The notes beneath the pieces are model-generated. The model searched no databases. It was not told the DNA's origin and saw nothing but the letters and a program-made list of their open reading frames with translations. From Phycisphaerae bacterium (lineage in GTDB: Bacteria > Planctomycetota > Phycisphaerae > Phycisphaerales > UBA1924): a DNA stretch of 64,000 nucleotides. Position 1 is the first letter of the stretch; each line of letters begins with the position of its first letter. Location: assembly GCA_030432905.1 (NCBI GenBank), contig JAUILU010000001.1, positions 1,240,001-1,304,000 on the forward strand, read 5' to 3'. The translations under genes and the position numbers were made by a program. This document shows positions 15,323-20,117 of this stretch, in pieces.

Positions 15323-18035
15323 CAGGACGGCTCTGCTCGTTCTCGCTGTGGCTCTGTCGGCGCTGCTCATCGCGGCGGTGTCGACCGCGATGACGTCGAT
15401 CCAGGGCTCACTCACCGAACGCATCGCCTCGACCATCGGCAAATCCGACGTCGTCATCAAACCCCGCGGCACGGGCCAGACCATATTCGAGCAGTGGATC
15501 GACCAAGCCAAAACGTGGGAAGGTGTTGAATCCGTCGCGGGCCGATTCGAGAGCCCGCTCTCACTCCGCGCGACGATCGAGCTGTACAAACCAATAGAAG
15601 ACGAAAACGGCGAGCACCGGCTCATCCGCACGCAGTCGATGGTCACATCGATGGGCAACGGGTTCGAGGTGGGCACCACCGACCGGATCCGCCCGCTGCC
15701 GATCGTCGAAGGTCGGCTGCCCCGGAACGACAACGAGATCGCGATCGACACCCTGCTCGCCGACCGGCTCGCGGGGCGCAAGGGCGACTCGGGCGCGATG
15801 GGCGGTGCGATCACCATGCGTGATGTGCTGCTCAACCAGAACGAAGAGCTCGATGCTCCGAAGCTCGGCAAACGAGAAGCCGACGAGTTCAACGACAACG
15901 TGCAGATTAAAATCGGCGACACCATCGAACAGGTCACAGGTTTGGCCAGACGGACCGGCGCGATCCTGACGGTGGTCGGCATCGTCGAGCCCCCACCGCT
16001 GGGTGGCAGGCCTCAGGCGTACATGACGCGGTCGGCGCTCGCGAATCTGTCGGGTCAGCCGGGCAAGGTCACCGCGGTCGAGATCCTGCTGAACGAAGAC
16101 ACGGAGGCCGCGGCGTTTGTCGAACGCACCGTCGCGTCGCTCTCCGAGGACGCCGAGCGGCGTGTGATCATCCAGACAACCGCGAAGGTGACCTCGGGCC
16201 TGCACAAGAACATGCGCGCAAGCCGGATCGGGATGGTCCTAGCCTCTGCGATCGCGTTCCTGTCAGCGTCGTTCATCATCATGACCGGGCTGACCGTTGA
16301 CGTCGCCCAGCGCCAGCACGAACTGGCGGTCCTGCGTTGCATCGGCGGCCGAAAGCTCCAACTCGCAAAGAGCCAGATCCTCAGCGGGCTCATCATCGGC
16401 GGGCTGGGCGCGATCATCGGCACGCCGACGGGCATCTTCCTCTGCGGCGTCCTGATGCATCTGCTCCGCGACCAGCTCCGCGCGGGGCTCATCCTCACTT
16501 GGTGGCCCGTCGTGCTCGCGGGCACAGGCTCGATCCTGGCGGGCTTGGTCGGTGCGCTCTGGCCCGCGTGGAAGGCATCGAGCACGAGCCCGCTCCGGGC
16601 GCTCAGCCCGCGCGTCACAGCGGTTAAAGGAAAATCAATCGCGATCGTCGGCGTGCTGGGTCTGGCGGGCCTTGCCATTCAGTTTGCGACCGTTCGCCTG
16701 CCGACGAGCGGCGACGCTGTCTTCTTCTTGTACATCTTCATCGGGCTGCCCGCGATGTTCGTTGGCTACTTCATGCTGGGCGTGCCCGCGGTGGTGCTTG
16801 GGTCGAGGCTGCTCGGGCCGACGATCTCGAAGCTGCTGGGTCTCCCGCCCAGGATTCTTGAGCGGACGATCGCGCAGACCCCCTACCGCTTCGGCTTTAC
16901 AGCGGGCGCGATGATGGGCGGGCTGGCGCTGATGATCTCGATCTGGACACAGGGCGGCTCGGTCATGCGTGACTGGCTGGGCAACCTCAAATTCCCCGAT
17001 GCGTTCGTCAGCGGGCTCTCGCTCTCGCCCGAGGCGCAAACAACGCTCGAAGAACTCCCGTTCGTAACCGGCACGTGCGCGATCACGCTTCACCCAGTCG
17101 AGACCGACGTGTTCGGCGTGTCGGGCATGACCAAATACCGCTCGTCGTTCATCGCGTTCGAGCCCGAGGTGTTCTTCGACATCGCGGAGCTTCAGTTCGT
17201 CGAGGGCGACGCGGAGACCGCAAAGCGCAGGCTCATCGAGGGCGGTGCGATCATGGTCGCCCGCGAGTTCAAGGTCGCCAAGGGCCTCGGTGTCGGCGAC
17301 ACGTTCGTCTGCACCGACAACGGCGAGCAGCACGAATTCGAGATCGTCGGCGTCGTCACCAGCCCGGGACTCGACATCGTCAGCAAGTTCTTCAACATCG
17401 GCGAGGAGTACACCCAGCAGGCTATCCACGCTGTGTTCGGCTCGCGTGACGACATGATCGAGCACTTCGGCAACACCTCGATCAACCTCATCCAGATCGA
17501 TCTCGACCAGAGTTTCGACGACGCCGAGGCCATCGAGATCATCCGCACAGCTCTGTTCAACCACGCCATCATGGACGCCGGAAGCGGGCGCGCGATCAAG
17601 AGCCAGCTCCGGTTCGTGCTAGGCGGCGCGATCGGCGCCTCGACCATCGTCGGCGTGTGCTCCATGCTTGTCGCGTGTTTCGGTGTCGCGAACCTGATCG
17701 CAGCGGGCATCGAAGCAAGGCGTTTCGAGTTCGGCGTGCTCCGGGGCGTGGGCGCTCAGAAAGCGCTGCTGCTCCGGCTCGTGATCGGTGAAGCGCTCAT
17801 CATCGCCGCGGCGGCGTGCGTGCTCGGGTCAGCGATGGGGTTGCAGGGCGCGTGGGCAGGCCGACGCATGAACTCGCTGATCATGGGGCTGGAACTCAAG
17901 CCGCACATCCCGGCGATCGGGATCAGCCTGGGATGGGTCATGGTGATCGTCATCACCGTCGCGGCTGCGGTGCCCGCGGGTTACTTCATCATGCGAACGA
18001 GCCCGAGAGCGCTGCTGCAGAGCAAGTCCGGCTAG
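15273..18035 (+). CDS. ABC transporter permease with two FtsX-type units
   Basis: FtsX-like TM blocks and MacB periplasmic-like core; overlaps the 3' end of the ATPase gene. Confidence 0.88.
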   Translation: MGSASRLAIRSLLARRNRTALLVLAVALSALLIAAVSTAMTSIQGSLTERIASTIGKSDVVIKPRGTGQTIFEQWIDQAKTWEGVESVAGRFESPLSLRATIELYKPIEDENGEHRLIRTQSMVTSMGNGFEVGTTDRIRPLPIVEGRLPRNDNEIAIDTLLADRLAGRKGDSGAMGGAITMRDVLLNQNEELDAPKLGKREADEFNDNVQIKIGDTIEQVTGLARRTGAILTVVGIVEPPPLGGRPQAYMTRSALANLSGQPGKVTAVEILLNEDTEAAAFVERTVASLSEDAERRVIIQTTAKVTSGLHKNMRASRIGMVLASAIAFLSASFIIMTGLTVDVAQRQHELAVLRCIGGRKLQLAKSQILSGLIIGGLGAIIGTPTGIFLCGVLMHLLRDQLRAGLILTWWPVVLAGTGSILAGLVGALWPAWKASSTSPLRALSPRVTAVKGKSIAIVGVLGLAGLAIQFATVRLPTSGDAVFFLYIFIGLPAMFVGYFMLGVPAVVLGSRLLGPTISKLLGLPPRILERTIAQTPYRFGFTAGAMMGGLALMISIWTQGGSVMRDWLGNLKFPDAFVSGLSLSPEAQTTLEELPFVTGTCAITLHPVETDVFGVSGMTKYRSSFIAFEPEVFFDIAELQFVEGDAETAKRRLIEGGAIMVAREFKVAKGLGVGDTFVCTDNGEQHEFEIVGVVTSPGLDIVSKFFNIGEEYTQQAIHAVFGSRDDMIEHFGNTSINLIQIDLDQSFDDAEAIEIIRTALFNHAIMDAGSGRAIKSQLRFVLGGAIGASTIVGVCSMLVACFGVANLIAAGIEARRFEFGVLRGVGAQKALLLRLVIGEALIIAAAACVLGSAMGLQGAWAGRRMNSLIMGLELKPHIPAIGISLGWVMVIVITVAAAVPAGYFIMRTSPRALLQSKSG

Positions 18036-18622
18036 AACTCGTCGTGCGAGAGCGCGGCCCGCTCTTGTCTGAGCGCCTTGGCGATCAGCACCACAACACC
18101 GAAGAGAAACAGGACGATGCCAATCCCGGAACCGATCTGCACTATCGGGAGCATGGTTGCCACCCAGTCACGCACGCTCGGCGCAACCCGGTACACCTGC
18201 GGATGCTCGAAGGAGCCTTGGATGCTGATCGAGACCTCGCCGTGGGCTGGCGAGGTGAAGACCGCCAGCGCGCGCCGGGATCGCTCGAAGCCGGGCATGA
18301 TCTTCTGCCGGACACGCCAGTCCATGGATTCTGTTTCGATTAACTCGCCCGTCTTGCGATCTGTAACCGTGACCACAAGGTCGTCGGGTGCTGGCAGCAG
18401 AGGTTGATTGACGGTGATGTGCGTGCCGGCGAGTTCTCTCCAGATCGCGATTTCTTTGTCTGGAGCGACGTCGAGTTCAACCGAGGCGGGCACCGTGATG
18501 CCGTGGCCCGTGGCCATGATCTGTGTCCAGGACACCATCATCGTGGCGAACGAGCCAATGAAAATCACGATCCCGAGCAGGATCGCGAGAATTGCGATGA
18601 TTGTCAGCCGTCTGATCCGCAT
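18032..18622 (-). CDS. Membrane protein of unknown function
   Basis: N- and C-terminal TM segments (LTIIAILAILLGIVIFIGSF; IGSGIGIVLFLFGVVVLI). Confidence 0.6.
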   Translation of the reverse strand: MRIRRLTIIAILAILLGIVIFIGSFATMMVSWTQIMATGHGITVPASVELDVAPDKEIAIWRELAGTHITVNQPLLPAPDDLVVTVTDRKTGELIETESMDWRVRQKIMPGFERSRRALAVFTSPAHGEVSISIQGSFEHPQVYRVAPSVRDWVATMLPIVQIGSGIGIVLFLFGVVVLIAKALRQERAALSHDEF

Positions 18623-18671: not shown

Positions 18672-19463
18672 TCACGCCTCAACCAACGCCTTGAGTTTCT
18701 GCAGCCCGTCGAGCCAGCCTTCTTCAAAGCCAGCGGGCAGGTCGTCATCGAACTCGCCCGACATCCGGTGGTCCACCTTCACAGTCGTGACGCCGGCTTC
18801 CTCTTCGAATGTGATGGTCATGTTGATGACCATCGCCGAGGGGATGGTGCAGTCGCCCCGCATACGGATTGACTTGTTCGGCTTGATCATCGTGATCTCG
18901 GCGAGCGAGTTGAAGCCGCCGTCGGGGAGTTCCATGTAGAAATGTCCACCCAGTTCGCGGTCACACCGGGCCGGCCTTTTCGTGATGTCGTCCTCAGTCT
19001 CGAAGAACCACTTGTGCGTGTCCTCGAACCACGCCTCGAAAACGGTTTCTTTCTTCGCGTTGATATCGATCTGTGTCTGAACCGTCGCGATGCGCGCCGG
19101 GCGGTCTGAAATCTTGGCGGACATGCCGAGCTCCTTCTGTTCTGCGAGGCGCTTGAGCGAGAGCAACGAGCCCGCCCATGAGTCCTCGTATTTGCTGACC
19201 CACCGCTCATAGATCTGCCGGAGCGGGACGGCATTGAGATGGTTAAACCTCTGCCGACCCTCCTTGGTCGCGACAAGCAAGCCCGCTTCTTCCAGCACGC
19301 CCAGGTGCTTCATCACACCGAACCGGCTCATCGCGGGCACAGCATCAACGAGCTGGCTCGTGGTCTTCGGGCCGGTGCGGAGCTGGTCGAGCAGGTCCCG
19401 GCGTGTCGGGTCCGACAGCGCACGCCACACCAGATCCAACGGGTTGGCTTGGTCATCATCCAT
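18672..19463 (-). CDS. ArsR-family HTH regulator fused to SRPBCC (AHSA1-like) domain
   Basis: N-terminal LVWRALSDPTRRDLLDQLRTGPKTTSQLVD wHTH; C-terminal VFEAWF...GGHFYMEL...VDHRMSGEFDD...GWLDGLQKLKAL. Confidence 0.85.
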   Translation of the reverse strand: MDDDQANPLDLVWRALSDPTRRDLLDQLRTGPKTTSQLVDAVPAMSRFGVMKHLGVLEEAGLLVATKEGRQRFNHLNAVPLRQIYERWVSKYEDSWAGSLLSLKRLAEQKELGMSAKISDRPARIATVQTQIDINAKKETVFEAWFEDTHKWFFETEDDITKRPARCDRELGGHFYMELPDGGFNSLAEITMIKPNKSIRMRGDCTIPSAMVINMTITFEEEAGVTTVKVDHRMSGEFDDDLPAGFEEGWLDGLQKLKALVEA

Positions 19464-19504: not shown

Positions 19505-20014
19505 TTAGAAAATCGGGGGCAGGCCTGTAGCGCGGCGGGTGGCGCTGATCTGGGCGGCGTGGAAGCCGTCGTGGAACGAAAGCGAAGCGCCGAGCTGCGC
19601 AAGAGTGCTGGCAAACTGTGCGAGATCACCCTCGATCGGGCGCATGAGTTCTTCGTCGGAAAGCGATCCGAGCCAGGCCTCGAGTTTCTCGCGGCGCTCG
19701 TTCATCGCAGCAATCAGTTCATCGCGCGACGGGTAGTCGCCGGCGTCGGTTTTCGGGGTTGAGTTCATGCCGAAGAGTTCGTCCCAAGACTCGGGCAACG
19801 CCCCGGCGTCGCCCGCCAGCGCCTTGAGAAAGTAGTTGTCGGTCGACGCAACATGCCCCACCACCCAAGCGGCGTTGTTAGCGCCCTCGAATGCGGGCTT
19901 GTGGAACAGTTCGTCCGGCGTCTTCTCGAGCATCATGTTGAGAAAGTTCCTGCCGAATCGGAGCGAATCGAGCGTGACCTTACGGAGACTGGAATCAGTT
20001 GTTGCGTTCGACAT
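19505..20014 (-). CDS. DinB-family protein
   Basis: LRFGRNFLNMMLEKTPDELFHKP...NNAAWVVGHVASTDNYFL...LSFHDGFHAAQISATRR. Confidence 0.82.
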   Translation of the reverse strand: MSNATTDSSLRKVTLDSLRFGRNFLNMMLEKTPDELFHKPAFEGANNAAWVVGHVASTDNYFLKALAGDAGALPESWDELFGMNSTPKTDAGDYPSRDELIAAMNERREKLEAWLGSLSDEELMRPIEGDLAQFASTLAQLGASLSFHDGFHAAQISATRRATGLPPIF

Positions 20015-20081: not shown

Positions 20082-20117
20082 ATATGTGACTATACAGTCA
20101 CATATCATGCCTGTCAA
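20082..20117 (-). promoter_or_regulatory. Sigma70-type promoter with embedded operator palindrome for the dinB/arsR-SRPBCC operon
   Basis: Minus strand TTGACA (20117-20112), 17 nt, TATAGT (20094-20089); perfect inverted repeat ATATGTGACT-ATAC-AGTCACATAT at 20082-20105. Confidence 0.75.

Follow-up and report, generated by a model that had tools for sequence, protein, structure and literature searches.

Results and Discussion

A consensus promoter whose -10 element lies inside a perfect palindrome raises the question of which protein acts at that palindrome, and with what effect on the genes behind it. We addressed this for one such locus in a 64-kb stretch of DNA (the window). The palindrome, ATATGTGACT-ATAC-AGTCACATAT (20082..20105, unstranded), is an inverted repeat with two arms of 10 nt that match at 100% across a gap of 4 nt, and its letters, the inverted-repeat listing and its conservation in homologs mark it as a candidate operator. 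The predicted promoter, TTGACA-N17-TATAGT, runs from 20117 to 20089 on the minus strand, agrees with the sigma70-type consensus at 11 of 12 positions and is the sole 11/12 site of this type on either strand of the whole 64 kb. Its -35 element TTGACA (20112..20117, minus strand) has counterparts in the four nearest fusion relatives (TTGCTA, TTGAGA, TTGCCG and TTGAAC), and its -10 element TATAGT (20089..20094, minus strand) lies wholly within the palindrome. In the window clade TATAGT is formed by the operator's own centre, and the register TTGNNN-N17-TATAGT is fixed in all five clade members, the window's copy included (5/5). Transcription is predicted to start at about 20082. The letters together with the inverted-repeat and promoter listings confirm the preliminary description of this promoter and of a perfect 10-4-10 palindrome holding its -10 element.

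Block-shuffled windows are expected to hold about 0.1 palindromes with perfect 10-nt arms and a 4-nt gap. With up to three mismatches allowed, the palindrome pattern matched once in the 64-kb window and in none of 100 shuffles, and this remained the single match across the 3.4-Mb genome. A regulon search of the same genome returned one exact site, the remaining matches listed carrying two mismatches, and its total of 70 against 44 with a reversed-pattern control was little excess. The lone genomic site shows local control.

Genes of the operon and domain architecture of the fusion

The first gene after the promoter (19505..20014, minus strand) encodes a DinB_2-superfamily protein of 169 aa (PF12867, 7e-17), a four-helix fold that is distinct from the dinB polymerase IV gene. 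Its putative metal ligands are H54 and H148-x3-H152, a pattern that resembles metal-dependent thiol transferases; the H148-x3-H152 pair is incompletely kept in the DinB_2 protein of locus L010. The second gene (18672..19463, minus strand) encodes the proposed autorepressor, also a putative sensor: a 263-aa fusion in which an ArsR winged-helix domain (PF12840 and PF01022, above cut-off) is followed by an SRPBCC/AHSA1 domain of helix-grip fold (PF08327, 7e-15). These Pfam domains uphold the gene calls behind the earlier claim that the promoter drives a DinB gene and then an ArsR-SRPBCC fusion. Just downstream on the same strand is a membrane-protein-like gene with no Pfam match (18032-18622), which has a counterpart in L034 and may be co-transcribed with the operon.

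The AlphaFold2 model of the fusion (mean pLDDT 85) gave an ArsR winged-helix fold with the recognition helix at residues 47-59 and the wing at 63-76, and PDB ArsR proteins matched this part by profile; with a pTM of 0.53, the model leaves it uncertain how the two domains sit relative to each other. The stretch S46-R47-F48-G49-V50-M51-K52-H53-L54 was invariant across 27 fusions, and the recognition helix has Phe48 as its second residue (codon at 19320..19322, minus strand, by counting from the start of the gene). Cysteine is absent from residues 1-112 (the ArsR domain) of the window protein, which makes cysteine-metal sensing unlikely, and no cysteine is invariant among the 27 fusions. For the C-terminal domain, Foldseek returned AHSA1-like and START-type structures (E 4e-9 to 1e-6), including Ms6760 of M. 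smegmatis, while its profile relatives in the PDB included CalC, CalU16 and TxnO9; the fold search identified the superfamily and indicated no ligand. CalC and TxnO9 are small-molecule (antibiotic) self-resistance proteins, and such relatives make a hydrophobic small-molecule inducer at most a fair guess. An SRPBCC/AHSA1 domain was fused (90) or adjacent (20) to the regulator in about 110 of 112 loci, and from this linkage and the cysteine-free ArsR domain it is plausible that the SRPBCC domain is the ligand sensor.

Conservation of the candidate operator across phyla

We gathered fusion homologs from the window's phylum and from a broad genome collection (112 loci) and searched up to 250 bp upstream of each regulator with the dyad model TGTnACY-N4-RGTnACA, which is the family consensus of the candidate operator (short form TGTnAC-N6-GTnACA). 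This model was used in place of an earlier unbiased best-palindrome scan, which was noisy in GC-rich DNA and had missed operators upstream of DinB. The preliminary description had proposed looking for the palindrome upstream of homologous operons, and it was found there: the model matched upstream of arsR in 85/112 loci against about 0.6 expected (mean 0.57 and maximum 3 loci in the shuffled control), and matches were 142 times as dense there as in the remainder of these loci. The operator loci span at least five phyla, namely Planctomycetota, Bacillota (Paenibacillus, Cohnella and Bacillus), Chloroflexota, Actinomycetota and Pseudomonadota, with other groups represented by single loci. Some homologs, for example L009, L040, L041 and L074, had no recognisable operator, which the end of a contig explains in some cases.

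L034 and L035, the closest relatives (82-83% identical), have an operator that differs by one base, occupies the same kind of syntenic gap, adjoining a divergent DUF3465 gene in L034, and is followed by the gene order SRPBCC-DinB-fusion. The additional SRPBCC-type gene that separates operator and DinB there (L034:2038-2472 and its equivalent in L035) is absent in the window genome, where the operator is retained. At L010:968-2390 the operator precedes individual genes for SRPBCC, ArsR and DinB, possibly an unfused form of the same operon. The divergent genes of L054 encode an NADPH-dependent FMN reductase and a SnoaL-like protein, and Paenibacillaceae loci such as L052, L058 and L060 carry a third operator copy at about -740 to -790 from arsR, beyond the divergent gene. 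The divergent oxidoreductase gene in Paenibacillaceae (the NADPH FMN reductase in L054) thus has operators on both sides.

We also compared DinB relatives drawn from 31 near genomes. The operator was present at all three DinB loci with the fusion (window copy counted) and absent at all 12 examined DinB loci that lack it, of which two belong to the same genus; threshold matches in L185, L193 and L195 were GC-rich and without the TGTnAC form. Many ArsR-SRPBCC loci that have no DinB still keep the operator. It is the regulator, rather than the target, that the operator follows.

Position of the operator relative to the promoter

The sequence TTGAC occurred within 25 nt upstream of 57/81 operators against 1.0 expected. 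Outside the window clade most cases fell into two placements, one some 17 nt ahead of the operator (24 at -16 to -18) and one overlapping the operator's left end (26 at -3). Reading these loci by eye, we found that at -3 the operator takes up the spacer between -35 and -10, and that in many loci of this register its last TAT begins a TATNNT at a spacing of 18. Paenibacillaceae have two operators at a distance of 27 or 36 bp, and a TTGACA frequently stands on the other strand. As each of these registers places the operator over core promoter elements, they point to occlusion. The direct occlusion of RNA polymerase suggested in the preliminary description has strong comparative support at the level of promoter geometry, by the -10 overlap at a fixed register in the window clade and by core-promoter overlap in the other registers.

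Covariation of residue 48 with operator base 7

The relation between the recognition helix and the operator was examined in 108 proteins (a set less than 90% identical), with operators located by a model that treated all bases at position 7 alike. Operators of Phe48 proteins had G or T at base 7 in 50/51 cases, the lone exception (L110) being a GC-rich match 783 bp upstream. Thr48 or Val48 went with C (10/10), Ile48 with A (12/12) and Gln48 with A plus a C at base 6 (9/9), such that overall the prediction of base 7 from residue 48 held for 81 of 82 operators. None of the ten Pro48 proteins fitted the operator model, and these lie outside the code. When the helix columns are left out, the tree requires seven residue changes and six base changes; three contrasts fall on strongly supported, independent branches and all agree with the code, three firm contrasts being too few for a formal sign test to reach significance. 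On this tree, at least three independent switches lie behind the covariation of residue 48 with base 7, and this covariation provides the strongest evidence that the fusion itself would read the palindrome.

Two further ArsR loci of the same genome carry palindromes of their own. L003 (G000:C2:98147), an ArsR paralog, has Ile48 and the palindrome ATATGTAAC-CTATAC-GTTACATAT (locus 1467-1490), centred 10 bp before the arsR start, which is the same layout with another base 7, as the code predicts. L004 (G000:C11:303179) encodes a Pro48-type ArsR and has a different palindrome, AATACTTAGGTC-TTGACCTAAGTATT; the Pro48 helix, MALPSF or MALPTF, is found in L004, L166 and L169 and represents a second operator class outside the code. 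In L018 and L124 (G016:C35), Thr48 is combined with Arg52 in place of Lys52 and the operator is TGTCAG-N6-CTGACA, a change of the neighbouring base that hints at a second code position.

Proposed mechanism and alternative explanations

Conservation of the site across phyla in company with the regulator, its absence at DinB loci that lack the regulator and its covariation with the recognition helix together indicate that the fusion is very probably an autorepressor acting by promoter occlusion, and they lend support to its earlier nomination as repressor of the palindrome. With high confidence we propose that the ArsR-SRPBCC fusion, the product of the operon's second gene, has the palindrome as its operator. 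A homodimer would place one recognition helix on each TGTGAC half-site. The operator would cover roughly -24 to +1, and because this span contains the -10 element, bound repressor would exclude RNA polymerase, so that the operon of DinB_2 protein and repressor would be autorepressed. A small molecule, probably held in the SRPBCC cavity, would detach the repressor from the operator and thereby induce the DinB_2 protein, which is presumably a metal-dependent enzyme of detoxification or thiol transfer.

It is possible, at a decidedly lower probability, that the fusion binds the site as a constitutive autorepressor that holds its own level constant, the SRPBCC domain being an enzyme or a partner binder and not a sensor. 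Covalent coupling is not needed, as SRPBCC is a separate adjacent gene in 20/112 loci, and Rv2034 is autorepressive and bound its own operator in vitro (PMC3338718); the near-universal ArsR-SRPBCC linkage and the presence of CalC and TxnO9 among the SRPBCC profile relatives argue for a sensor instead. That the fusion is a mere passenger and another repressor, for example of CRP/FNR type, binds the palindrome is improbable. The half-sites TGTGA and TCACA do resemble a CRP site, and repressors need not be encoded beside their own operators, but the half-sites here are separated by N8, whereas CRP sites have N6 spacing (TGTGA-N6-TCACA). Moreover, the site accompanies the ArsR subfamily and is missing at DinB loci without the regulator, its letters change in step with the ArsR recognition helix, which strongly disfavours this reading, and the genome has a single site and no regulon.

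A role in RNA, as a hairpin of the 5' leader or a terminator, is suggested by a strong inverted repeat near the transcription start; we regard it as very improbable, since the palindrome lies upstream of or on the predicted start and contains the -10 element, and so would not be transcribed whole. The palindrome is moreover not among the listed terminators, and its bases covary with a protein residue. As for a functionless chance palindrome, nothing beyond the AT-richness of promoters speaks for it; with 0.1 expected in the window and the site kept in a comparable position across phyla, its probability is negligible, and the cross-phyla conservation (85/112 loci) refutes it.

Comparison with known systems

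The closest characterised system is Rv2034-Rv2035-Rv2036 of Mycobacterium tuberculosis, in which Rv2036 is a DinB/DUF664-type protein. The DinB_2, ArsR and SRPBCC types all occur in the window operon, as in the Rv2034-type operon, and as three separate genes in L010. Rv2034 autorepresses with a footprint from -30 to +3 over the promoter, and its operator CCGTAAGT-N4-ACTTACGG consists of two inverted repeats 4 nt apart (PMC3338718). The two systems thus have in common an ArsR autorepressor (proposed here), an SRPBCC-type gene (Rv2035, polyketide_cyc2) and a palindrome with a 4-nt gap. They differ in that the mycobacterial genes are separate with the regulator first, whereas in the window the ArsR-SRPBCC fusion is the second gene; in the half-site, CCGTAAGT against ATATGTGACT here, the window being without CCGTAAGT-N4-ACTTACGG; and in reach, as Rv2034 reportedly acts on phoP and dosR too and only one genomic site is present here.

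The ArsR/SmtB metalloregulators (SmtB, CzrA, NmtR, CmtR) share the winged-helix fold with the fusion; in them the operator lies over the promoter and a signal lifts repression, as is proposed for the fusion. Unlike them, the fusion has no cysteine in its ArsR domain and carries an extra C-terminal SRPBCC domain, and its score of 48 is below the NCBIfam metalloregulator cut-off of 55. In Frankia, ArsR genes occur in a potential operon with AHSA1 genes, a link said not to have been elucidated (PMC4531530). This pairing is common to Frankia and the window, and the passage concerned gives no operator or mechanism (PMC4531530); in our set, Frankia locus L103 has the operator at the arsR start. For the LacI family, the cited passage associates amino acids with operator bases from local gene regulation (PMC2978694), and that code likewise links repressor residues to operator bases, in a different fold and family (PMC2978694). 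Among the matches listed in our literature search, no ArsR recognition code appeared by title, and the search, with subscription journals mostly outside its coverage, found no mechanism for ArsR with SRPBCC or AHSA1, no operator of an ArsR-SRPBCC fusion and no residue-48 code; the operator letters gave unrelated matches only.

Significance of the ArsR-SRPBCC family

ArsR genes paired with SRPBCC/AHSA1 genes occur in many bacteria, and their operator, its promoter position and a one-residue specificity code have now been read out across phyla, which makes it possible to test binding, a change of specificity (F48T to prefer TGTCAC) or candidate ligands in a single experiment each. We give an even chance to the broader view that these proteins form a widespread, experimentally undescribed one-component class that combines an ArsR reader, an SRPBCC ligand cavity and a code between residue 48 and base 7. 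If this is true, operators, and so target genes, would be predictable from protein sequence across phyla, and the ArsR-SRPBCC family could supply sensors with predictable operators.
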